Shown here piece by piece: positions 5,959 to 60,026 of a stretch of DNA of 64,000 nt. Numbering within the stretch: the stretch's first letter is position 1; the number at the start of each line of letters is the position of its first letter. The translations under genes and the position numbers were made by a program. The DNA comes from Streptomyces sp. NBC_01233 (GTDB lineage Bacteria > Actinomycetota > Actinomycetes > Streptomycetales > Streptomycetaceae), in the NCBI RefSeq assembly GCF_035989305.1, contig NZ_CP108514.1, forward strand, positions 7,544,501 through 7,608,500, given 5' to 3'. The notes beneath the pieces were generated by a model. It saw nothing but the letters and a program-made list of their open reading frames with translations. It was not told the origin of the DNA and did not search any database.

Positions 5959-6723
5959 GTGTCGCCTGGTGAGTTGGTCCGTGCGCTGCGTCGGCGCTGG
6001 TACGTGCTGGTCGTGGCGGTGCTGCTCGCGGCCGCGGGAGGGGCGGCGGTGCTGCGGCCCGAACCGGTCTACTCCAGCTCGGCGATCGTGGTGCTCAAAC
6101 CGCCGGTGACCAGCACCCAGCCGAACCAGCTCGCGAACCTCCAACCGCCGCTCGCGGCCGTCTCGTACGGGGTGGTGCAGCAGCTCGGCTCGCCCGCCGG
6201 AGCAGTCGAGCTCAAGGCCGCCGGAGTCACCGGCACCTACCGGATGACACCGCGCAACAGCGGTACCAGCGTCACCCCGCGCCACCTGATCCCCTCGCTC
6301 CAGATCCAGGTGGAGCACTCCGACCCCGCGGCGGCCGACGCCTCCGTACGGAAGATCATCGAGGCCTACACCCGACACCTGACCGAACTCCAGACGCAGC
6401 AGGGCATCCCGGCCGGGGCACGGATGAGCGTGTACCTCCTGGTGCAGCCGCACGCGGTCGCGCGGACCGGCGACCGGGTGCGCGGCCTGGCCGGAGTGGC
6501 CCTGCTGGCCGCGGTCGGCGGTGTGGCCGCGGCCCTGTGGACCGACCGGCTCCTGACACGCCGGAACCGGCGCCGGCGCGAGAGCGCCGACGCCGGTCCG
6601 CAGGACCCGCCGGGCGAACCGGTGGAGACGGGGCATCAGATCCCTCGGCGCTTCCAGGACCGCCACCACAGCCACTCGCGCCCCCGGTCGGCGACGGCCG
6701 ACAGCACCAGCGGCTGGAGGTAG
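5959..6723 (+). CDS. Wzz-type polysaccharide chain-length/co-polymerase protein
   Basis: A 254-residue membrane protein. The basic N terminus LVRALRRRWYVLVVAVLLAAAGGAAV contains TM1, a roughly 150-residue extracytoplasmic domain follows, and VRGLAGVALLAAVGGVAAALW is TM2, before a basic cytoplasmic tail rich in Arg. There is no tyrosine-kinase domain. It parallels the N-terminal half of the divergent fusion protein, so the two may be diverged duplicates. GTG at 5959 has an ideal AAGGAAGGG site upstream; the ATG at 5941 lies on that site and is less likely. The last 88 bp overlap, on the opposite strand, the 3' end of the adjacent glycosyltransferase gene. It is the only rightward gene in the polysaccharide locus. 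Confidence 0.75.
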   Translation: MSPGELVRALRRRWYVLVVAVLLAAAGGAAVLRPEPVYSSSAIVVLKPPVTSTQPNQLANLQPPLAAVSYGVVQQLGSPAGAVELKAAGVTGTYRMTPRNSGTSVTPRHLIPSLQIQVEHSDPAAADASVRKIIEAYTRHLTELQTQQGIPAGARMSVYLLVQPHAVARTGDRVRGLAGVALLAAVGGVAAALWTDRLLTRRNRRRRESADAGPQDPPGEPVETGHQIPRRFQDRHHSHSRPRSATADSTSGWR

Positions 6724-7685
6724 GGCATCATGCGCGGACCGATCCGCCGACGCCTGCGCAGCGCCCGGTACTCGGCGAGCGACGTGTAGCCGCCGGGCAG
6801 GCACTCGGCGGCGAACTCCTCGAGCTCGTCGACCGGTACCACCGCCGTGCGTCCCCGGTCGTACGCCCGGTAGGCGCGCCGCAGCGCGTACCGGGCGAGC
6901 CTGGTGCGCGCCGCCAGCGCCAGCCGGTCGGCACCGGGCAGCAGGCCGGCGCACTTGTCGAGCACCGAGTCGAAGGCGACCAGGCGCTGGCGCAGGTCGT
7001 CGAGCTGTCCACCGAAGTCCGTGGTGGACATGTTGTTGCCGTGGACCCGGTAGAAGGCCTGGTCGGCCCCCTGGACGTAGCCCACGTCGGCGTGGGCCGC
7101 GAGCCGCATCCACATCTCGATGTCACCGGCGTGCGGCAGCTCGGGATCGTAGCCGCCGACCTTGCGCTGGAGGCTGGTGCGGACGACCACCTCGGGTGAG
7201 GTGATGCATCCGGTGCCCTCCCGGAACCGCCGCTCCAGCCACCACTGCCCGGGGTAGACGACCGACCCCGTGCTGTGGGTGCGGGCCACGGGGAGCGGGC
7301 CGCCGTGCCGGAAGCGCAGCGGCCGGCCGTAGGCGAAACCGGCTTCCGGATGCGCGTCGAGCAGGGTGGCGGCGCGCACCAGGGCCCCGGGGACCAGCCG
7401 GTCGTCGGCCGAGAGCAGGGCGACGTAGTCCCCGTCGGCCCACTCCAGCAGGCCCTCGTTGTACGTGGCGATGTGCCCCCGGTTCTGCTCGTGGACCCGG
7501 ACCTCGATCCGCGGGTCGGCGGCCGCCAGGGCGCGCGCGACCTCCGCCGAGTCGTCGGGGGACGCGTCGTCGATGATCAGTACCCGGACGTCGACGCCCT
7601 CCTGCTCGTCCAGGACGCTCTTGACGCAGTCGGCCAGGAAGTGGCCGTACTTGTAGCAGGGGATCACCACGCTGACCGTGCTCAC
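6636..7685 (-). CDS. Family 2 glycosyltransferase
   Basis: A 349-residue GT2 enzyme: VSVVIPCYKYGHFLADCVKSVL at the N terminus, VLIIDDASPDDSA (first Asp pair), NRGHIATYNEGL, and YVALLSADDRLVPGAL, where SADD is the metal-binding DxD-type motif. HAGDIEMWMRLAAHADVGYV is the acceptor-side ED-like motif. The C-terminal 100 residues are helical and basic. It is expected to build an exopolysaccharide or cell-surface glycan at the membrane. The ATG overlaps the TGA of the DUF4082 gene (ATGA), so they are coupled. Its 3' end overlaps the convergent Wzz-like gene by 88 bp. Confidence 0.88.
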   Translation of the reverse strand: MSTVSVVIPCYKYGHFLADCVKSVLDEQEGVDVRVLIIDDASPDDSAEVARALAAADPRIEVRVHEQNRGHIATYNEGLLEWADGDYVALLSADDRLVPGALVRAATLLDAHPEAGFAYGRPLRFRHGGPLPVARTHSTGSVVYPGQWWLERRFREGTGCITSPEVVVRTSLQRKVGGYDPELPHAGDIEMWMRLAAHADVGYVQGADQAFYRVHGNNMSTTDFGGQLDDLRQRLVAFDSVLDKCAGLLPGADRLALAARTRLARYALRRAYRAYDRGRTAVVPVDELEEFAAECLPGGYTSLAEYRALRRRRRIGPRMMPYLQPLVLSAVADRGREWLWWRSWKRRGI

Positions 7686-10600
7686 TGGCCGGCCACCTCC
7701 GTGGAGCCGTCCGACTGGATGCCGTTCGGCAGGGTGGTGGTGAAGACCGGCCCGACCCAGTAGTTCACGGAGCCGAAGGTGTTCGTGGGGAACGTGGTGG
7801 TCGCGCCGTACTTGTAGAGGCCGTTGGCGCCGCCCGATCCGTCGGCCGGTGCGACCAGCGGGTAGGAGCGGTGTGCCCCGGTGAAGTAGCTCCCGTCCAC
7901 CGAGTAGTTGCCGTTCGGCGCGTGGTAGGAGGCCACGTACGAGGTGCCGGCGGTGACGGGGACCGGGGTGGCGAACTTGAGCTGTTGCCAGCCGGTCAGG
8001 GTCTCGCTGCCGAAGGTTCCGGTGGCGAGCAGGGTACCGTCGGCGGCCCAGAGGCTACCGGTGTGGGTACCGGTGTTGCCGGGGCCCTTGTAGAAGGTGA
8101 CACCGGTGATGAAGCCGTTCGCCGCGGACTGGAAGCGGGTGCCCAGCTCGACGGAGTTGGTGTCGTCCACCACGTTGGTGGTGCTCGGCGTGGCGGTGTT
8201 CGGCCAGAGGCCGCAGGGGCAGTTCACGGTGGGCGGGTTGGGGCTGGTGGTGAAGTTCCACGTGACCGGTGCGGTCATCGCGTTGCCCCACAGGTCGCTC
8301 GCCTGGACCGACAGGGTGTAGGTCGAGTTCAGAGCGAGTTCGCTGGAAGGCGAGAAGGTCGCGCTGTTGGCCGCGCCCATCACCTTCGTACCCGGGACGT
8401 TGGCTCCCCCGGAGTCCTTCAGGGTGAACACCAGGGTGTCGGAGTCGATGGCCGTGGAGAAGGTCGCCGTCGCCGTGGCCGTGATCTGTGTGCCGGTCGC
8501 CGCGGACTGCGGCGAGGTGGAGGTGACGGTGGGCGGTGTGGTGCTCGCGGCCGAGGTGTCCAGGACCGCGTCGACCCAGTAGTTGCTGCCGCTCGCGGCC
8601 GTGTTCGGGAAGCCGCCCGTCGCGCTGTAGCGGTAGACGCCGTTGCCGCCGTCGGTACCGCTCTTGAGCGCGGTGAGCGGGGCGAGACCCGCGGAGCCGG
8701 AGGCGAAGGTGTTGTCGAAGGAGTACCCGCCGTGCGGAGCGAAGTAGGAGGCGACGTACGTGGTGTTGGCCTTGACCGGCACCGGAGTGGCGAAGTTCAG
8801 CTGCTGCCAGCCCGAAGCCGTCTCGTTGGTGAACGTGCCCGTGGCCAGGCGCTGACCGGTGGCGCTCCACAGGCTGCCGGTGTGCGTGCCCGTGTTGGCC
8901 GGGGACTTGTAGAAGCGGACGCCCGTGATCGAACCGGCCGCCGTGGTGCGGATCTTCACACCGAGCTCCACCGAGCTGCCGTCACCCGCGTTGACGGTCC
9001 CCGGTACCGCGGCCGCGGGCCAGACGGTGCAGGGGCACTGCTGGGGGCCGACGGTCAGCGGCACCGTGGTGACGGCGCCGATGTTGACGCTGTCGTCCAC
9101 CGCGCGGACCTTGATCTGCACGGGGCCGGGAGCGGTCGGCGTCCAGGTGTAGCTCCAGGTTCCGACGCCGGTGGTCGCCTTCCAGGTGGTTCCGCCGTCC
9201 GTGGAGACCTCCACGCGGGCCACCACGCCGCCACCGCTGTCGGCCGCCGTGCCGGTGACGGTCACGGGCCGCAGGGCCGGCACGGTGGCGCCGGCCGCGG
9301 GGCTCGTCACGCTGACGGCCGGCCCGGTGGCGTCGGTGGACGCGGTGGCCGGGACCAGGTTGCCCTGCAGGCTCTTGGGCTGCACCCCCATGTCCGCGAA
9401 GACGTTGACGGTGGCCTGCTGCATCCGCTTGTCCTCGGTGACCACCATGTCGTCCGGGTTGCCCGTCGGCATGTTGGTCAGGCCCCACGACCACTGCACC
9501 GTGCCCGTGCCGAAGACCAGGGCGTGCGAGGTCTGGTCGCGGAAGGCGACCAGGCTGTGCGTCGCGGTGCCGTTTCCGTAGGTGTTGCCGTAGTCCAGCC
9601 GGTACTTGCCGTCCTCGATGTCCACGGTGGTGGAGGACATCTTGATCTGCCCCGGCGGCCGCGCCGCGTCCTCGATGTCGGAGTCCCACTCGTAGCCGAG
9701 CGTTCCGGTCGGGAAGGTCGCGGTCTGCGAGGGGGTCAGGCTCGCGACGGTGGTGTTGCGCCACAGCCGCATCTTGGCGAACGCACCCGGTACGGTGATC
9801 GCGTCCGCCCGGTAGCCGTTCACCGTGAACAGCGTTCCGGTCAGCTGGTTCTGGGGCTGGTACGGACGCCCGTTGGTGGCGCTGGCCGGGTCCATGAAGG
9901 TGCCCGTCCAGGTGCCGCTCGGGTCGGGAACGCCGTTGGGCACGGGGAAGGACAGCTTGGTCTCCTTGTAGCAGACCAGTGTCCGGTTGGCGGTGTCGGC
10001 GCCGTCGATGCTCGGTGCCAGCCGGGTCTTCCAGAAGATCTCGTTGCCGGCGAAGTACGTCTGGTGCTGACCGGCACGCCGGGCGTTCAGGGCGTTGGTG
10101 AACTGCTCCTGCGTCCAGTACTCGTCGTGCCCCGAGGACATGAACACCTTGTGGTTCTGCATCAGGGAGGCGCCGCGCACCGACATGTCGATCCCGGACA
10201 TGTAGCTGACGTCGTAGCCGTTGCGCTCCAGCCACGAGATCATCTGGTACTCGGAGCCGTAGATCCCGTTCTCCCCGCCGATGTCCATCGGACGGTTGTA
10301 ACTCACCTCGTACGCACGCCCGTCCGGTGCGGGACCGCCGCCGTCGTAGAGGTCCTGCCCGCCGTAGTTGTTGTACGCCTGCCAGGTCTGGTCGCTCGTC
10401 TGCACCAGGATGTCGGAGTGGCTGGAGTCGTTGCGGACGACGAACGGGTACGGCATCAGGCCGTTGCCGTCCGCCTGGTCGAAGTTGGCGATGTACAGCC
10501 CGGAGACGGCGTCGGACGGCACGCTCCACGTTGCCGTCACGGGCCAGTTGCCGCAGTCGACCAGACCGGTCGACGCCTTGGTCGTGCAGGTCTTCGGATT

Positions 10601-50916: not shown

Positions 50917-51216
50917 GTGATCGAGTTGACGAGCGTGATCAGGGATCTACGGGAGGAGCTGGGCCGGGCGATCGCCGCGGCGGAGGGCGAGGCGCTGCGC
51001 TTCGAGCTGGGACCGATCGAGCTGGAGCTGTCGGTCGCGCTGGAGCGGTCCGGGCAGGCGGGGGCGAAAGTGCGGTTCTGGGTGGTGGAGTCCGGCGCGG
51101 AGGCGGCGGTGGGCACCGTGTCGGCCCAGCGCATCTCACTGGCGCTGCAGCCGGCCTTGGCGGGGACGGACAAACCGCCGTTCATCTCCGGCCGCGCCGA
51201 CGCAGACGAGCAGTGA
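50917..51216 (+). CDS. Trypsin-co-occurring domain 2 (Trypco2) protein
   Basis: A 99-residue protein: MIELTSVIRDLREELGRAIA, GEALRFELGPIELELSVALER and KVRFWVVESGA.....GTVSAQRISLALQP match the Trypco2 (CU044_2847-like) family. Such small genes occur next to trypsin-fused NTPases in actinobacterial conflict systems described by the Aravind group and may be an adaptor or a target. GTG at 50917 has AAGGGG upstream. The TGA overlaps the GTG of the trypsin-NACHT gene. Confidence 0.8.
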   Translation: MIELTSVIRDLREELGRAIAAAEGEALRFELGPIELELSVALERSGQAGAKVRFWVVESGAEAAVGTVSAQRISLALQPALAGTDKPPFISGRADADEQ

Positions 51217-54002
51217 GCGCCGCCGTGGGCGGGGCGACGGAGCCGGCCGGGCTCGACCGGCGGCGGGCGGTCCAGCTCGTCACCACGTGCGGCGCGGGCG
51301 CCGGAGGCCGCGGGTCGGGTTACCAGGTGGCCGGGAACCTGGTGCTCACGGCCGCGCACGTGGTGTGCGGCGCGGCGACCGTACAGGTGCGTTTTCTCAC
51401 CGAGGACGGCGGTACGCGGGAGGTGCAGGGCAAGCCGTTCTGGGTGGACTCCGACTCGGACGTCGCGCTGATCGCCCTCGCGGACGCGGCCGCCGGCCCG
51501 GGGGCGGGCAGCCCGGCGGGCGCTGCGGTTCCGCCGGTTCGGTTCGCCCGTGTCTCGAAGCCGGTGGAGTGCGAAGCACTGGGATTCCCGAGGTTCAGAC
51601 TGCGGGCCAAGGCCGCGTCGCCGGACGGCGGCGCGGCCGTGAGGTATCGGGATTCCCATCATGCACGCGGTGAGACCACCCCGTTGTCGAACCAGCGTGA
51701 GGGCAGTCTGGAGATCACCCTGAAGTCCTCCCCGGAGCACGATCCCGAGCGGGGCCGTTCACCTTGGGAGGGTATGTCGGGGGCCCCGGTGTGGAGCGGC
51801 GGGTACGTGATCGGGGTGATCACCAGGCACTACCGCTCCGACGGGCTCGGCACGCTCGCGGCGAGCCCGGTGGAGCGCTGGTACCGGCGGGCGAGTCCGC
51901 AGGAGATCGACGAACTGAGCTCGTTGATCGGGTTGCCGGCGCATCCCGGCCGACTGGAGGAGCTTCCCCGGGCGGCGCCGCTCCCCGGTGCGCCGGAGCT
52001 GCGGGAGGCGGCCGGGCTGCTCGCCTCCAGGGTGGCCGGACAGTGGCGGAAGGAGGAGCGGCGGCGGCACGTGCACGACCCGTTCCCGCTCCCCGTGCGC
52101 TTCCGGAATGCCGACGCGTGCCTGCTCGATCACTGGGCCAAGATCTGCGACGCACCACCCGGGGCGGATCCGGCGCCGCTCGAACTGGCCGGCCGCATCG
52201 ACCGGATCGTGGAGGTCTACCGGTCCATCCCGTCCCGCCGGCTGGTGGTGCTCGGCGGGGCCGGGGCGGGCAAGACGATCCTGACCCTGCGCTTCGTCCT
52301 CGACTGGCTGGGCGCCCGTACGCCGGACGAGCCCGTACCGGTGATCTTCAGCCTGGGATCATGGGACCCGACCACCGTCTCCCTGCGCGACTGGATGTGC
52401 CACCAGCTGGTACGCGACCACGGCCTCGCCGTTCCCGCCGCACACGGAGGGACTCTGGCCGGCGCGCTGGTCGACACCGGCTGGATCCTGCCCGTCATGG
52501 ACGGGTTCGACGAGATCGCCGGCGGCCTGCGGCGCGCAGCGCTCAAAGAGCTCGACCGCACCACCACCCCGCTGCTCCTCACCAGCCGGCCCGGGGAGTA
52601 CGCCGAGGCCGTGGCGGCCCGCCCGTTCCCGAAGGCCGCCGTCGTCGAGCTGGACGACCTGACCGTGGACGACGTCGCCCTCTACCTGCCCCTCACCAGC
52701 CGTCCGGGTAAGGACGGCGGTATGCGCAGCACCGTGTGGGAACCCGTACTGGACGAGCTGCGCAGGCAACAGCGCAGCCCGGGCGCGGAGAACCTGGCCA
52801 GGGTGCTCGTCACCCCGCTGATGGTCGCCATGGCCCGTGCCGTCTACGGCGACGCCCGCGGGTCCGACCCCGTACGGCTCCTGGACACCGCCGCGTTCGC
52901 CTCCCCGGAGGCCCTGCAGAGACATCTCCTGGCGGCGTTCACCCCGGCCGCGTACGAACCCTCGCCAACCGACGGCGGCAGCCGTCGGCGGCGGCAGGAC
53001 TGGAACCCCGACCGTGCGCAGCAGTGGCTCGGCTACCTTGCCGTGCACCTGGACCGACTGGGCAGGGCGGGCACGGGCGTCCCGGCTCGTGACCTCGCCT
53101 GGTGGCAGCTGGGCACCACGATGAGCCGTCGCTCGCGCATGCTCGTGATCGGATTCCTGGCCGCACTGGCCCTCGGGGTGACGACGGCCGTCGGGAACGT
53201 TCCCGTGGACTTGGTCGCGACATCGTTCGGACTCAGGTTCGCGGTCGTGCGGGGGCTCGTGGTCGGGTTCCTGCACGCGCTGGTGAACGGACTGTTCTTC
53301 GGGCTCGTGTACGGATTCGTGTCGAAGGGTGCGGCAGAGCCGTCGCGCGTACGCATCCAGGTCTTCGGCAGGACCGGGCACGGGCGTACGGGGGTCCTCC
53401 CCAGGTTCCGGCTGGGGCTCGTGTGCGGGGTCCTGGCCGCGCTCGTGCTGTTGTTCCTGGACAGGGTCGTGGTCGAGTCCCTGGGGCTCGGGGACGGCCT
53501 GGACGGCGGGCTCGTGGGGGGCCTCGTGTTCGTGCCCATGCTCGGGCTCGGAGTCGGGTCGGTGTTCGGGCTCATGGCCTGGCTGGAAGTTCCCGTCGAC
53601 ATCAGATCGGGTGTCAGTTCCTCGGAGCTGCTCGGCCAAGACCGCAGGAACGTGCTCTTCCATTTGCTGGTCTGGGCGCTCGTGTTCGGGACGGGAGCCG
53701 GATGCGCCAACGCATTCACGGCCGGGCCCGTGTGGGGACTCCTGCTGGGGCTCGCCTTCGGGATCGAAGCTGCCTTCGCGGGCGGACTCGCGTACGGACT
53801 CGCTTTCACCGCTTGGGGCCAGTGGGTGGCCCTCGCGCGCATCTGGCTGCCGCTCACGGGGCGGTTGCCCTGGCGGCTGGTCGCTTTCCTCGACGACGCG
53901 TGCGAGCGGGACGTACTGCGCCAGGCCGGCGCGGTCTATCAGTTCCGGCACGCTCAACTCCAGGACCACCTGGCCCGGCCGGGCCAGGTGGTCGGCCGGT
54001 GA
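51213..54002 (+). CDS. Trypsin-like protease-NACHT NTPase-multi-TM fusion
   Basis: A 929-residue membrane protein. The N-terminal trypsin-like domain has LVLTAAHVVCG (His49), DSDVALIAL (Asp83) and WEGMSGAPVWSGG (Ser189), a complete triad. A NACHT NTPase follows: LVVLGGAGAGKTILTLRF (Walker A, 348-355), WILPVMDGFDEIAG (Walker B) and TTPLLLTSRPGEYA. Residues about 635-890 hold six or more TM segments rich in Gly/Leu/Val (MLVIGFLAALALGVTTAV and LLVWALVFGTGAGCANAF). The C terminus ends FRHAQLQDHLARPGQVVGR, a NACHT C-terminal motif. It is a STAND-type receptor whose effector is the protease. Coupled to Trypco2 by a GTGA overlap. Confidence 0.88.
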   Translation: MSAAVGGATEPAGLDRRRAVQLVTTCGAGAGGRGSGYQVAGNLVLTAAHVVCGAATVQVRFLTEDGGTREVQGKPFWVDSDSDVALIALADAAAGPGAGSPAGAAVPPVRFARVSKPVECEALGFPRFRLRAKAASPDGGAAVRYRDSHHARGETTPLSNQREGSLEITLKSSPEHDPERGRSPWEGMSGAPVWSGGYVIGVITRHYRSDGLGTLAASPVERWYRRASPQEIDELSSLIGLPAHPGRLEELPRAAPLPGAPELREAAGLLASRVAGQWRKEERRRHVHDPFPLPVRFRNADACLLDHWAKICDAPPGADPAPLELAGRIDRIVEVYRSIPSRRLVVLGGAGAGKTILTLRFVLDWLGARTPDEPVPVIFSLGSWDPTTVSLRDWMCHQLVRDHGLAVPAAHGGTLAGALVDTGWILPVMDGFDEIAGGLRRAALKELDRTTTPLLLTSRPGEYAEAVAARPFPKAAVVELDDLTVDDVALYLPLTSRPGKDGGMRSTVWEPVLDELRRQQRSPGAENLARVLVTPLMVAMARAVYGDARGSDPVRLLDTAAFASPEALQRHLLAAFTPAAYEPSPTDGGSRRRRQDWNPDRAQQWLGYLAVHLDRLGRAGTGVPARDLAWWQLGTTMSRRSRMLVIGFLAALALGVTTAVGNVPVDLVATSFGLRFAVVRGLVVGFLHALVNGLFFGLVYGFVSKGAAEPSRVRIQVFGRTGHGRTGVLPRFRLGLVCGVLAALVLLFLDRVVVESLGLGDGLDGGLVGGLVFVPMLGLGVGSVFGLMAWLEVPVDIRSGVSSSELLGQDRRNVLFHLLVWALVFGTGAGCANAFTAGPVWGLLLGLAFGIEAAFAGGLAYGLAFTAWGQWVALARIWLPLTGRLPWRLVAFLDDACERDVLRQAGAVYQFRHAQLQDHLARPGQVVGR

Positions 54003-55326: not shown

Positions 55327-56352
55327 CTATTCCGCCGTGGTGAGTCCGGCGCGTTCGGCGAGGGCGCCGCCCTGGAACCGGCTCTCCGCGCCCAGCTCCT
55401 CCAGCAGGTCCGCGATGTGGCGGCGGCAGGTGCGCAGGGACATGCCCATCCGCCGGGCGATCACCTCGTCCTTGGCGCCCTCGGCCAGCAGCCCGACCAG
55501 CGCCCGGCGCAGGCTCGGGCCGACCTCCTTGTACGCGGCCTCGCTGCTGCCGTGGAACGGGGTCGCGCCGGACCAGTGCTGGTCGAAGACCCGGCACAGG
55601 TACGCCACCACGTCCGGGTCCCGGACCAGTACCGCCCCCTCGCCCGGGCCGCCGTCGCCGCGCCGGGGCAGGAAGGCCACCGAGCGGTCGAACACCACGA
55701 CCCGGTAAGGCAGTTCGGCCGCGGTGCGGTACTCGGCGCCGGCCTCCGTAAGGGTCTCCACGTACCCCTGGGTGGAGAGGCTGGCGCGCGCCGAGTGCTG
55801 GTAGAGGGTGCGCATCACGACCCCGCGGCGCAGCATCGCGAGGTCCCGCTCGATGGCGTCCCCGAGGCGGTGCGGGGCCCGGCCGCCGCCCGGCTGGATG
55901 CTGAACACCTCCTCCCGGCAGCGGGCCGACTCCTGGGTGAGCATCGCCGAGGCGGCCGCCAGATCGGGCAGGACGTCCACACCCTGCCGGTGGTCGCGTT
56001 CGCGTTGGGCGGCGCGGTAGTGGGGCATCAGGGAGCGCAGGTCCTCGCGTACGGACTGGGCGTGCGCGGCGGCCTGCGCGACCCGGGCCTCGAGCGGGCC
56101 GACCGCCTCGGCCGCGGCCGCGTCCGGGCTGACCGGTATCAGCTCCTCGGGGCTGTCGGGTGCCGGGCGCAGCAGCCGGAGCGTCAGCAGGGTTCGGCAG
56201 GCCCCTTCGACGTCCTCCGGGCTCATGCCGAGGGCTTCGGGCACGTCGGGCGGGCACCTCTTGAGGCTGCCCTGCGACAGGGCGTACGCGAAGACTGCGA
56301 CGGCCCGGGCGTCCAACCGCGGCAGTTCCATGGAGTTTGTCTGGATGGTCAT
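55327..56352 (-). CDS. LuxR-type transcriptional regulator
   Basis: A 341-residue regulator. The C-terminal HTH is FDQHW...LVGLLAEGAKDEVIARRMGMSLRTCRRHIADLLEELGAESRFQGGALAERAGL, a LuxR/GerE domain without a receiver. The N terminus carries a TrmB-like wHTH (VAVFAYALSQGSLKRCPPDVPEALGMSPEDVEGACRTLLTLRLL). The middle (about 90-240) is a helical/DUF region with SVREDLRSLMPHYRAAQ. Streptomyces proteins of this shape sit beside small peptide or RiPP genes. ATG at 56352 has AGGGGAA upstream. It is divergent from the secreted peptide/lanL unit and probably controls it. Confidence 0.83.
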   Translation of the reverse strand: MTIQTNSMELPRLDARAVAVFAYALSQGSLKRCPPDVPEALGMSPEDVEGACRTLLTLRLLRPAPDSPEELIPVSPDAAAAEAVGPLEARVAQAAAHAQSVREDLRSLMPHYRAAQRERDHRQGVDVLPDLAAASAMLTQESARCREEVFSIQPGGGRAPHRLGDAIERDLAMLRRGVVMRTLYQHSARASLSTQGYVETLTEAGAEYRTAAELPYRVVVFDRSVAFLPRRGDGGPGEGAVLVRDPDVVAYLCRVFDQHWSGATPFHGSSEAAYKEVGPSLRRALVGLLAEGAKDEVIARRMGMSLRTCRRHIADLLEELGAESRFQGGALAERAGLTTAE

Positions 56353-56402
56353 GATTTCCCCTGCAATGCGGCCGTGCTACTTCCGTGCCATGCAGGCTAT
56401 TG

Positions 56403-56419
56403 CCAGCTCGCAAGGCTGG
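56403..56419. promoter_or_regulatory. Possible operator in the LuxR/lan divergent gap
   Basis: CCAGC at 56403-56407 is inverted as GCTGG at 56415-56419 with a 7-bp spacer, 51 bp from the LuxR start. The gap 56353-56564 (212 bp) must hold both promoters. It also contains a short CGTGCTACTTCCGTGCC stretch. The site is a guess from symmetry alone. Confidence 0.25.
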
Positions 56420-56564
56420 ACCAAGGGGGCACACCCATATGAGCCTTGAGTTCCGGCCGGGCCACACCACGCCCCACCAGGCCGATATGTCGACACAGGG
56501 CGTGAACCGCCCGACGCGGGCGTTCGCCGCCCGATCCACACTCTCCCCATCCAGGAGCCGTCCC

Positions 56565-56762
56565 ATGTCCCGAGCCCTCCGCTGTCTGCTCCTCCTCGCG
56601 GTCCTGCTGGCCGGCGGAGCCTCCGTCGCCGCCGAACCGGAGGCAGGGCCCGGGGCGGCCGCCGGGCGCCACGGGGGTGCGGGGGGCGGGGCGACCGCGG
56701 TCCGCGCCGGGGAGATTCTCGACACGAGCTGGGGTGACGACCACATCCGGCCGCCCCTCTAG
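56565..56762 (+). CDS. Small secreted peptide upstream of lanL
   Basis: A 65-residue peptide with a clear signal: MSRALRCLLLLAVLLAGGAS, then VAAEPEAGPG at the cleavage area, a short Gly/Ala/Arg middle and the C-terminal sequence AGEILDTSWGDDHIRPPL. It lies between the LuxR gene and lanL. ATG at 56565 has AGGAG eight bases upstream. It has no Cys in the mature part, so it is not a second lanthipeptide. Family unknown; a secreted signal or regulator is possible. Confidence 0.65.
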   Translation: MSRALRCLLLLAVLLAGGASVAAEPEAGPGAAAGRHGGAGGGATAVRAGEILDTSWGDDHIRPPL

Positions 56763-56801
56763 GGCCGGTTGGTCCCTCCCGTCCGCCTCACCCCCCGGCT
56801 C

Positions 56802-56864
56802 CGAAGTCCGAAGTCCGAAGTCCGGAGTTCGAAGTCCCCGGCCCGAAGCTCGAAATGCGAGGTC
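56802..56864. repeat. Heptanucleotide tandem repeat before lanL
   Basis: Nine 7-bp units in register: CGAAGTC three times, CGGAGTT, CGAAGTC, CCCGGCC, CGAAGCT, CGAAATG, CGAGGTC. Copies decay toward the lanL start, and the last unit carries its GAGG ribosome site. The array lies entirely between the secreted-peptide stop and lanL. Confidence 0.8.
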
Positions 56865-56871
56865 GCAGAGC

Positions 56872-59739
56872 GTGTCATCACTGCCCGAGACTCCGTTACG
56901 GTCCCTCACCGGGCCGCGGCGGACGCGCGCCGAGGGTCCCGCGGACCGGGCGCTGCTGCCCGACCTGGTACGCGCCGCCCTCGCGCGGGCCGGGGCCGGA
57001 CGGCCCGGGGCGGCGGGGGACTGGGCCGTGGAGCCGGGCGAGTTCTGGTGCCACGTACGGCCCGGGGGTGTCGTCCGCCGCACCCAGGGGTGGAAGCTCC
57101 ACGTCTCGGCGACCCCGCTCTCGGCCCCGCTGGTGCTGGCCCGGGCCGCCGAGGTGCTGACCGCCCACCGGGTGCCGTTCAAGTTCGCGGCGAGCCCCGC
57201 GCGGGTCGCCGCCCTGGTCTCGGGGCGCTTCGCCCGGGGAGGCGGCGGCAAGTTCATCACGGTCTACCCGGCGGACGACGCGCAGTTCCGGCTGCTCGCC
57301 GAGGAGTTGCACCGGGCCACCGTGGGGCTGCCCGGACCCGCGGTGCTCTCCGACCGGCGATATCTGCCGGACAGTCAGGTCTACTACCGCTACGGGGTGT
57401 TCGCGGCGCCCCCCGAGCTCACCTCCGACGGCGCCTTCGCCGCCCGCCTGACCGACCCCGAGGGCCGGCCGGTCCCCGACGAGCGCAACGCCTGGTACAG
57501 CCCGCCGTCCTGGGCGGGCGACCCGTTCCCGGGCCGCCCGCTCGCCCCGGCCCGCAGCACGGCCACCGCGAAGCCGGTGCTGCTGCACGAGCGCTACCTC
57601 GTGCGCGGCGCGATCCAGCACTCCAGCAAGGGGGGCGTGTTCCGGGCGGAGGACACCGCCACCGGCGCCCAGGTGGTCGTCAAGCAGGCCCGTCCGCATG
57701 TGGGCGCGGGACTCGAAGGGCTGGACGTACGGGACCTGCTGCGCCGGGAGGCGGCGCTGCTGGAACGTTTCGGCAAGCGGTTCGCCGACCGCGTTCCCCG
57801 GCTCGTCGAGTTGTTCGAGCAGCAGGGCAGCGCCTTCCTGGTCGCCGAGTCGGTGCCCGGGGCGACCCTGCGCCGGACCGTCGCCGAGCGGCTGGTCCGG
57901 GAGGGCGCCGCCTGCTCCGGCGAGACCGCGGAATCCCTCGTCCGGCAGCTGCTCGAACTGGTCGGTACCGCCCACGAACTCGGCCTCACCCTGCACGACT
58001 TCAACCCCAACAACGTCATGGTCACCCCCGACGGGCGGCTCCGGCTGATCGACCTGGAGATGGCCGCCCGGGAGGGCGAACGCTGGGTGCTCGGCGCCAC
58101 CCCCGGCTACACCGCCCCCGAACTGCGCGCCGCGGACCCGGTGGCCCCTGCGTTCGGGCCCGGCGTGGACCTCTACGCCCTGGGCGCCACTATCCTGCAC
58201 ACCCTGACCGGCGCCGATCCGCTCTTCGCGGCGGACCGGCCCGCGACGGGGGCCCGCCCGGACGAGGAGCGACTGTCCCGGCTCCTGGAGCTGCTGGCCC
58301 GAGACCAGCCGCTCGTACGGCGATTCGGGCCGCTGGTCCGGGGGCTGATGCGGGACGAGCCCGCTGACCGCTGGACCCTGGAACGGGCCCGGGGGGCCCT
58401 CACCGGCGGCGCGGCGCCGACGGCACCTGCCGCACGCGCCGGCACTTCGGGGTCTACGGGGCCCACGGGACCGGCGGAGGTGCGCGCACGACTGCTGCAC
58501 GACGGCATCGCCCACCTGCTGGCCACCATGCGACCGGCGGACCCCGACCGGCTCTGGGCCACGGACTCCTTCGGCGAGACGTGCGACCCGGTGGCCCTCC
58601 AGCACGGCTCGGCGGGCGGGGTGAGCGTGCTCGCCAGGGCCCTGCGCCACGCCGACGACCTCGCGGCCGGGTTGCCGTACGGGACCTCCTGCGGGTCGCC
58701 GTACGGGCCGCCGGTCACCCCGAACGCCCTGCGTACGGGGCTGCGTACGGCCGCGGTCTGGACGGCGGACCGGCAGGAGGCGCTGCCCGGCAACCTGCCC
58801 GGACTCCACTTCGGCCGTTCGGGCACGGCCTGGGCCCTGCTCGACGCCGCCCGGGCGCTGGACGACCCGGCGCTCACCGAACGCGCTGTCGCGCTCGCCC
58901 TGGCGCTGCCCGTGGAGTGGCCCAACCCCGATGTCTGCCACGGCGCGGCCGGCGCCGGCCTGACCCAGCTGCACTTCTGGCGCACCACCGGGGACCCGCG
59001 CTTCCTCGACCGTGCCGCGCACGCCGCCGAAGGGCTGTTGGCAGCGGCCCGGCGTACGCCCGAGGGCGTCTTCTGGCCGGTGCCCGAGGACTTCGACTCC
59101 GGTCTGGCGGGCGCCTGGCACTACGGATTCGCACACGGCGTGGCCGGGGTGGGCACCTTCCTGCTCCTCGCCGGGCAGGTCACGGGCGACGAGCGGCTTC
59201 GCGCCGCGGCCGTGGCGGCGGGAACGACCCTCGCCGAGGCCGCCCGCCGCGGACCGGCGGGCACCCTGTGGCCGGTGGACCGGGCCCGGCACCTGTCGGA
59301 CTCCCCGGACCTGGCCCGGCACTGGTGCAGCGGCTCCTCCGGAGTGGGCACCTTCCTGGTCCGCCTCATGTCGGTCACCGGTACCCGCGACGAGGGCCTG
59401 GCCGAGCTGGTGGAGGGCGCGGCCGCCGCCGTCCGGGCGGGCAGGGTGACCGACTCGCCCGCCACCTGCCACGGGCTCGCGGGCAACGCCGAGTTCCTGC
59501 TCGACGCCGCCGAGCTGACGGGCGATGCGCGCCACCGCGACGGAGCCGAGCTGCTCGTCGAGCACATGGCGGCCCAGGCGGTCCTGCGCGACGGCCGGCT
59601 GCTCGTGCCCGACGAGAACCGCAAGACCGTGCTGGCCGAGTACGCCACCGGTCTGGCCGGGAGCCTCTCACTACTGCTGCGCCTGCGGTACGGCGGCCCG
59701 CGAGCCTGGCTGCCCGAGGGCGAATCCGCCCGCCCCTGA
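56872..59739 (+). CDS. lanL: Class IV lanthipeptide synthetase LanL
   Basis: A 955-residue RiPP synthetase. Lyase-like N terminus (about 60-260: KLHVSATPLSAPLVLARAA, KFITVYPADDAQF, SDRRYLPDSQVYYRYG). Ser/Thr kinase domain (about 230-510): GGVFRAEDTATGAQVVVKQA, HDFNPNNVMVTPDGRLRLIDLEMA. LanC-like cyclase (about 580-950): WPNPDVCHGAAGAG, HYGFAHGVAGVG, HWCSGSSGVGTF and ATCHGLAGNAEF. Zinc ligands C819, C866 and H867 are present, which separates class IV LanL from class III LanKC. It dehydrates Ser/Thr of the precursor and closes thioether rings. GTG at 56872 with GAGG upstream; the precursor gene follows 88 bp later. Confidence 0.92.
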   Translation: MSSLPETPLRSLTGPRRTRAEGPADRALLPDLVRAALARAGAGRPGAAGDWAVEPGEFWCHVRPGGVVRRTQGWKLHVSATPLSAPLVLARAAEVLTAHRVPFKFAASPARVAALVSGRFARGGGGKFITVYPADDAQFRLLAEELHRATVGLPGPAVLSDRRYLPDSQVYYRYGVFAAPPELTSDGAFAARLTDPEGRPVPDERNAWYSPPSWAGDPFPGRPLAPARSTATAKPVLLHERYLVRGAIQHSSKGGVFRAEDTATGAQVVVKQARPHVGAGLEGLDVRDLLRREAALLERFGKRFADRVPRLVELFEQQGSAFLVAESVPGATLRRTVAERLVREGAACSGETAESLVRQLLELVGTAHELGLTLHDFNPNNVMVTPDGRLRLIDLEMAAREGERWVLGATPGYTAPELRAADPVAPAFGPGVDLYALGATILHTLTGADPLFAADRPATGARPDEERLSRLLELLARDQPLVRRFGPLVRGLMRDEPADRWTLERARGALTGGAAPTAPAARAGTSGSTGPTGPAEVRARLLHDGIAHLLATMRPADPDRLWATDSFGETCDPVALQHGSAGGVSVLARALRHADDLAAGLPYGTSCGSPYGPPVTPNALRTGLRTAAVWTADRQEALPGNLPGLHFGRSGTAWALLDAARALDDPALTERAVALALALPVEWPNPDVCHGAAGAGLTQLHFWRTTGDPRFLDRAAHAAEGLLAAARRTPEGVFWPVPEDFDSGLAGAWHYGFAHGVAGVGTFLLLAGQVTGDERLRAAAVAAGTTLAEAARRGPAGTLWPVDRARHLSDSPDLARHWCSGSSGVGTFLVRLMSVTGTRDEGLAELVEGAAAAVRAGRVTDSPATCHGLAGNAEFLLDAAELTGDARHRDGAELLVEHMAAQAVLRDGRLLVPDENRKTVLAEYATGLAGSLSLLLRLRYGGPRAWLPEGESARP

Positions 59740-59827
59740 GTCTCCGGTGGCCGTCGGCCACCGGCTGCCGGGCCCGCCCGGGTCCGGCGTTCCACCCGCA
59801 GTTCCATTCGTACAGAAGGAGACCGCC

Positions 59828-59953
59828 ATGGCGGAGTTCGACATCGATGCCCTCCAGGTCCTGCCCGAGGACCTCCGTACCGAGGACGCCCGTGGCGAAG
59901 AGCACGCCGCCGCGCTGATCACGGCCTGCCGCTGGCACACCAGCGGCTGCTGA
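59828..59953 (+). CDS. lanA: Lanthipeptide precursor LanA, 41 residues
   Basis: The 41-residue precursor starts MAEFDIDALQVLPEDLRTED. The helical DIDALQVLPE segment resembles the leader-binding motif of class III/IV precursors. It ends in AALITACRWHTSGC, the likely core. The core has two Cys (34 and 41) and Thr32, Thr38 and Ser39 as dehydration sites, so at most two rings. No GG-type cleavage site is obvious. ATG at 59828 has GAAGGAG at ideal spacing, and a strong hairpin follows 38 bp after the stop. No exporter or protease gene is present. Confidence 0.88.
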   Translation: MAEFDIDALQVLPEDLRTEDARGEEHAAALITACRWHTSGC

Positions 59954-59991
59954 TCGCCGGCTGAACCGGCGGCGACCCCTGCGCCGCCCCC

Positions 59992-60026
59992 GGGAGGGGA
60001 CCGGAGCCCTGAGCCGGTCCCCTCCC
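59992..60026. terminator. Perfect 13-bp hairpin after lanA
   Basis: GGGAGGGGACCGG at 59992-60004 pairs with CCGGTCCCCTCCC at 60014-60026 with a 9-nt loop. It lies 39 bp after the lanA stop and should terminate the lan operon. Confidence 0.8.

Follow-up and report, generated by a model that had tools for sequence, protein, structure and literature searches.

A class IV lanthipeptide locus of Streptomyces sp. NBC_01233 conserved with a divergent regulator and a small, putatively exported peptide that may act as its signal

Class IV lanthipeptides, such as venezuelin, streptocollin, globisporin and SflA, rely on a single LanL protein that combines lyase, kinase and zinc cyclase domains, and on precursors with an ALQxL-type leader. 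The venezuelins and SflA are named in PMC9576775 as the two class IV members characterised before that work, which adds two more, and a review (PMC10676316) relates that class IV peptides came to light through bioinformatics and were produced heterologously, isolation from a natural producer not having been possible. Here we describe a locus of this kind in a 64,000-nucleotide stretch (the window) of the 10.3 Mb genome of Streptomyces sp. NBC_01233 (contig NZ_CP108514.1, positions 7,544,501 to 7,608,500), in which a LanL gene and its precursor gene adjoin a small gene for a putatively exported peptide and a divergent regulator gene. The lanthipeptide by itself belongs to a known kind, and it is the conserved regulator and exported-peptide gene that take the locus beyond known class IV systems. 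On balance we lean towards reading the four genes as a cassette for a class IV lanthipeptide whose production is governed by a peptide signal that the cassette itself encodes.

The LanL gene (56872..59739, forward strand) begins with a GTG at 56872 and encodes a protein of 955 residues that matches the NCBIfam class IV LanL model NF038150 with 1016 bits (cut-off 650), its match to the class III LanKC model (440 bits) falling under the cut-off of 575. The lyase, kinase and zinc cyclase assigned to it in an earlier, sequence-only reading are borne out by this match and by the RamC_N (lyase, residues 48-229), Pkinase (253-506) and LANC_like (644-946) domains of Pfam. The numbering of the zinc ligands then proposed, C819, C866 and H867, is right, and these three residues, like K271, D376, N381 and D394 of the kinase, are the same in 28/28 aligned LanL proteins. 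The alignment comprises the window and 27 of 38 LanL loci, which were taken from a pattern-based scan of one genome per species across 84,980 species that detects close relatives only. The Cys-Cys-His ligands of the cyclase are described as absent in class III LanKC (PMC7268733); three domains in one protein, the match to a curated model and the zinc ligands together place the window protein among the class IV LanL synthetases. One of the 38 loci, in Streptomyces diastatochromogenes ATCC 21481 (L035, 4942-9096), carries both LanL and regulator in split frames, possibly owing to sequencing errors.

The precursor gene lanA (59828..59953, forward strand) begins 88 bases after LanL, behind a strong ribosome-binding site, AGAAGGAG, read from the sequence at 59814..59821 on the same strand. 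Its 41-residue product, MAEFDIDALQVLPEDLRTEDARGEEHAAALITACRWHTSGC, has a DIDALQVL box in the leader and the core CRWHTSGC, and matches the model for ALQxL class IV lanthipeptides, NF038157, with 22.1 bits (cut-off 19), a precursor with an ALQxL leader being hence adjacent to LanL. The ribosome-binding string also stands ahead of the precursor gene in four further precursor loci (L163, L165, L166 and L168), and a variant of it in two others (L167 and L169). Close relatives of LanA adjoin LanL in 8/38 LanL loci, where the core reads CR[WI][HL]TSGC (CRWHTSGC in L005 and L007; CRWLTSGC in L006, L008, L009, L011 and L035; CRIHTSGC in L004) and where T32, C34, T38, S39 and C41, in window numbering, are unchanged throughout. 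Synonymous codon changes relative to the window gene outnumber nonsynonymous ones in seven of the eight comparisons, the exception being L004, with four synonymous against eight nonsynonymous changes. Within the genus the precursor was found in 7/295 genomes, counting its own, at least three of which are strains already among the 38 LanL loci. With its model match, its ribosome-binding site and its relatives, the 41-residue precursor proposed from sequence can be upheld, and we regard the identification of the locus as a class IV lanthipeptide cassette as highly probable.

Two features that the sequence-only reading had singled out as odd appear less so in this comparison. Compactness does not set the precursor apart, given that in 7/38 LanL loci (L012, L013, L014, L016, L018, L022 and L034) the precursors were read by script, taking the shortest start, as having 29-33 residues. 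The core itself, a single short segment with two cysteines, is unlike the GTCxCVGLLTLLNTVCVGISC-type cores of L025 and L029, which presumably resemble venezuelin. Pieces of the core gave no match in a text search of 5.39 million papers, outside which lay the supplementary precursor list of a public-genome survey; because this survey counts 815 clusters and 401 precursors of class IV (PMC7268733), the core may already be listed there. The lack of a leader protease is no peculiarity either, since for SflA, a class IV peptide whose locus is similar in this respect, and for several class III peptides, leader removal is reported to be the work of AplP-like M1 metalloproteases whose genes lie away from the cluster (PMC10885120), and the genome holds seven M1-peptidase matches.

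The locus had also been taken to be minimal, but LanL and LanA are consistently accompanied by two more genes, one for a regulator and one for a small exported peptide. The regulator (55327..56352, reverse strand; 341 residues) lies divergent to the other three genes, and the peptide gene (56565..56762, forward strand) encodes 65 residues. Across nine loci chosen for holding the precursor (the window, L004-L009, L011 and L035), regulator, exported-peptide homologues with DTSWGD and LanL are each present in 9/9, though in L035 LanL appears as split frames and was lost from most comparisons. No further gene of at least 90 codons is common to all nine. A comparison of flanking genes over roughly 6 kb (in the window, 4.3 kb on the downstream side of LanL) at an E-value of 1e-20 finds none that the window, L004, L005, L007 or L011 shares with any other locus; L006, L008, L009 and L035 have a common gene context. 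Owing to its shortness or variability, the exported-peptide gene escapes this gene-sharing filter, and its presence was established separately. All four genes were likewise found in the further precursor locus L168. A non-coding block by the regulator start (56366..56406), in which 36 of 41 columns are invariant among the nine aligned loci, is a candidate operator or promoter; its central 20-mer (56375-56394) is unique in the window even when three mismatches are allowed, which fits a single promoter region that would serve the peptide-LanL-LanA strand. We are thus confident that regulator and exported peptide are part of the lanthipeptide cassette.

The exported peptide consists of a hydrophobic N-terminus, a variable spacer and the C-terminus DTSWGDDHIRPPL (56721-56759), and across the nine loci its middle varies while the DTSWGD near the end is kept. 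It has no match in Pfam or NCBIfam at an E-value of 0.001, and here, as for all peptides below, the export segment was judged from hydropathy only; on that basis, a small exported propeptide adjoins the regulator. Paralogues of the regulator in the same genome likewise adjoin exported-looking open reading frames (ORFs), with PEDDQWT, three copies of DTGWT, two of SINWD, or GLIWD, and once with a downstream NWAWD; no Trp-motif ORF was seen beside one of them, L068. The paralogue next to the two SINWD copies (L071, 4546-5679) contains an in-frame TGA.

The pairing extends across the regulator family, which has matches in 41/41 genomes of the genus, with 1-17 per genome. A divergent, exported-looking ORF with the motif [DEN]xxW lies within 900 bases upstream of 45/122 regulators versus 3/207 ordinary genes (Fisher p 6e-19), and at least two copies of the motif are found for 27/122 regulators versus 0/207 ordinary genes (Fisher p 3e-13), the control being genes of at least 250 codons from the retrieved loci. 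A looser, earlier pattern was matched at least once for 51 and at least twice for 29 of the 122 regulators; the corresponding figures were 33 and 11 among 1549 random windows, and 86 and 10 among 4000. The 122 derive from 137 regulator frames, 125 of which reached 180 bits and 122 of which had 900 nucleotides upstream. The motif was picked after inspection of this first set and was then used unchanged on a second set, drawn from genomes of the genus absent from the first (20 loci with 36 frames, of which 27 were kept), in which 17/27 regulators have a motif peptide and 10/27 have one with at least two copies. Both sets are made up of best-scoring matches and hand-picked places and share orthologous pairs, so that the counts are phylogenetically non-independent. 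Peptides of more than 120 residues or with a Trp in the first 20 residues were excluded, which leaves the ten-copy peptide of L188 and that of L173 uncounted; so were the broken L071 regulator, and hence its SINWD peptide, and L007.

In the 26 peptides that have two or more motifs, comparison of the tetrapeptides shows identity in 119/120 cases within a peptide versus 165/3201 between peptides, and the second set gives 84/88 versus 129/815. The tetrapeptide codons vary synonymously in most of ten peptides examined (there is no such variation in L084), and the spacers differ from one another both in length and in sequence; the four residues therefore seem to be kept by selection, as far as codon patterns can tell. 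Many copies of one short unit per precursor, differing between strains, is how a multi-copy pheromone precursor is laid out. The copy numbers recorded are nine of DSTW in L094 and ten in L188, seven of DSGW in L182, seven of DVGW in L183, six of DTGW in L076, four of DLVW in L088 and four of DPGW in L193, all divergent from regulators and with motifs that differ between strains. Similarity between motifs also follows, to a suggestive degree only, similarity between the middle domains of the regulators (r 0.21, p 0.002), as against their C-terminal helix-turn-helix (r 0.07, p 0.17), in 56 of 68 pairs retained for this test.

Plasmids carry such pairs as well. In 4 of 6 plasmid records examined, out of 129 with a match, the NCBI annotation has a divergent hypothetical protein of 56-64 residues next to the regulator, and the peptides end in DTSWGWGGVPPKLQ, DDQWGAACP, DDQWGVAHP and DDTSWGG. 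The first of these is close to the DTSWGDDHIRPPL of the window, and no LanL occurs in the 15 kb listed for that plasmid. The two DDQWG pairs, on linear plasmids (L171 and L172, around 6632-9095), adjoin an AfsA-related gene and polyketide-type genes, and one plasmid regulator for which no peptide was found lies near a nonribosomal peptide synthetase. Elsewhere, the three-copy DTGW pair has ClpB and DnaJ as neighbours. The pair thus looks like a general module that may have been adopted by some biosynthetic clusters.

The regulator itself is laid out as a winged helix, a long helix and a PLD-like middle domain, as in TrmB-like proteins, followed by a C-terminal LuxR-type helix-turn-helix. In a profile comparison, positions 13-228 match TrmBL2 and positions 228-297 the DevR/NarL helix-turn-helix, and the winged helix together with the PLD-like domain places the protein in the TrmB family. 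The LuxR-type part is a feature of the wider family, with a GerE match (Pfam, E-values up to 0.01) in 6/6 regulators examined. Archaeal TrmB and TrmBL proteins differ from it in lacking both this additional C-terminal helix-turn-helix and a paired peptide gene. Six family regulators are clustered in one stretch (L162, G033:C8:116651-128443), five of them co-directional, and a motif peptide was called for the first only.

Parallels to the pair are found in known kinds of cell-cell communication. By definition, an RRNPP system encodes its cytoplasmic receptor next to a small propeptide that is exported (PMC10075063), and the pair described here resembles the Rgg-SHP and PlcR-PapR pairs of Bacillota in that a small exported-propeptide gene adjoins the gene of a proposed cytoplasmic receptor. 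It is unlike them in its Streptomyces host, in the many precursors with identical tetrapeptide copies and in its regulator, TrmB-like with a LuxR-type helix-turn-helix, tetratricopeptide repeats, the mark of an RRNPP receptor, being absent from the Pfam matches of the six regulators at an E-value of 0.01. Gamma-butyrolactone signalling of the ArpA type offers a second parallel, with a proposed signal-receptor pair near biosynthetic clusters and, for two of the plasmid pairs, next to an AfsA-related gene. The receptors of butyrolactone systems are TetR-like; here, unlike in those systems, the regulator is not, and the proposed signal is a gene-encoded peptide. A literature search that mostly excluded subscription papers gave no recognisable description of the regulator-peptide pair, which could be in print elsewhere.

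On the biosynthetic side, we propose that LanL would bind the DIDALQVL leader of LanA, phosphorylate and eliminate Thr32, Thr38 and/or Ser39 and close at most two thioether rings, at Cys34 and Cys41, with the leader trimmed by a general, chromosomally encoded protease; the ring pattern is likewise a matter of prediction. On the regulatory side, a short Trp peptide (DTSW...) would be cut from the putatively exported 65-residue precursor and re-enter the cell through an oligopeptide permease, and the divergent regulator would be its cytoplasmic receptor, the loaded form of which would turn on the peptide-LanL-LanA strand. Re-import would be needed because the domains of the regulator are of the cytoplasmic-protein type; the oligopeptide-binding protein family has 16 matches in the genome (three fall within a single frame), a usual finding without value as proof. 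We rate as somewhat better than even the chance that the exported peptide serves as a pheromone which the regulator senses and by which the lanthipeptide is controlled. The broader proposition, that a large class of peptide communication exists in Streptomyces, in which exported [DEN]xxW precursors with one to many identical units are divergently paired with TrmB-like/LuxR-type receptor-regulators, differ in specificity between strains and are plugged into various clusters, here as a pheromone gating a lanthipeptide, we hold to be evenly balanced.

Several observations weigh against peptide-signal control. The window peptide holds a single copy of the motif, and the window's own clade supplies 10/122 regulators. 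By the same caller, 77/122 regulators are without a motif peptide, some of them inner members of regulator clusters and others having none for no such reason; outside the genus, 1/27 regulators have a motif and 0/27 a repeat; the strict caller counts 2/6 plasmid regulators; and no divergent peptide is annotated for the plasmid loci L174 and L175. The correlation between middle domain and motif loses significance and falls to r 0.07 (p 0.23, n=22) when regulators are thinned to more than 25% divergence and to r 0.14 (p 0.14, n=17) at more than 35%, and it is -0.09 among repeat-bearing regulators only (n=8). The middle domain resembles that of TrmBL2 in being PLD-like, with no indication of peptide binding, and the structure model that agrees with the TrmB-like layout is of low confidence (predicted local distance difference test, pLDDT, 66.5; predicted template modelling score, pTM, 0.35). 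Among the further precursor loci, L169 yields just the precursor and the end of LanL, with neither regulator nor exported peptide found, and the peptide gene of L163 is split, its first part lying with the regulator about 0.6 Mb away in L164. The latter case is probably a misassembly of that genome (G012; L163 7108-10607, L164 around 6222-7560), the joint carrying what we take to be sequencing-adapter sequence.

The likeliest alternative is that the locus is an ordinary class IV locus whose regulator senses something else, for instance a sugar, and whose exported peptide is co-regulated and has an extracellular role without being a signal. TrmB proteins of archaea bind sugars, the N-terminal and middle parts of the regulator are TrmB-like both by sequence and in the weak model, import and binding of the peptide are proposals, and regulators without a motif peptide form the majority just given. 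Such a view leaves unexplained why the tetrapeptide is near-invariant within a precursor and different between precursors, and why peptides of this kind stand divergent beside the regulator family away from LanL, and we consider it possible, though rather unlikely. The repeats might instead be the cores of a natural product, the Trp peptide being the precursor of a ribosomally synthesized and post-translationally modified peptide (RiPP) whose expression the regulator controls. The repeats do resemble cores, multi-core precursors occur in some RiPPs, and ligases are at hand, of the ATP-grasp type beside L068 (the regulator without a motif peptide) and of the GCS2 type beside the repeat peptide of L121. 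But the precursors carry export-like segments, which to our knowledge most bacterial RiPP precursors do not, and no enzyme type recurs in a scan of ten genes that neighbour six pairs or regulators (of the same genome and L121), among them a phosphopantetheinyl transferase, a SARP-type regulator, an alcohol dehydrogenase and the two ligases; we hold this account to be very improbable. Self-inducing lanthipeptides exist, nisin being an example, and the core is very conserved (CR[WI][HL]TSGC), but that the mature lanthipeptide is itself the ligand of the regulator, with the Trp peptide as an accessory, is very improbable given how widespread the regulator family and the Trp peptides are, including in stretches for which no LanL is listed.

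Should control by the exported peptide hold, a short synthetic peptide could activate a silent class IV lanthipeptide cluster, and perhaps other silent clusters of Streptomyces that have an adjoining pair. Actinobacterial signals are described as typically small molecules made by enzymes (PMC10075063); if a family of gene-encoded peptide signals is real, Streptomyces would have a kind of signalling new to the genus, and that small-molecule picture would change.

The same genome has further lanthipeptide-related genes, namely a class II LanM (L002, 1390-3888; 595 bits) and a LanC-like frame (L003, 19-2304) followed by a SapB/AmfS-like precursor match at about 2301-2435. Within the window, positions 51213-54002 encode a trypsin-like peptidase fused to a NACHT nucleoside triphosphatase, with hydrophobic stretches discernible by eye, which is possibly a defence protein.

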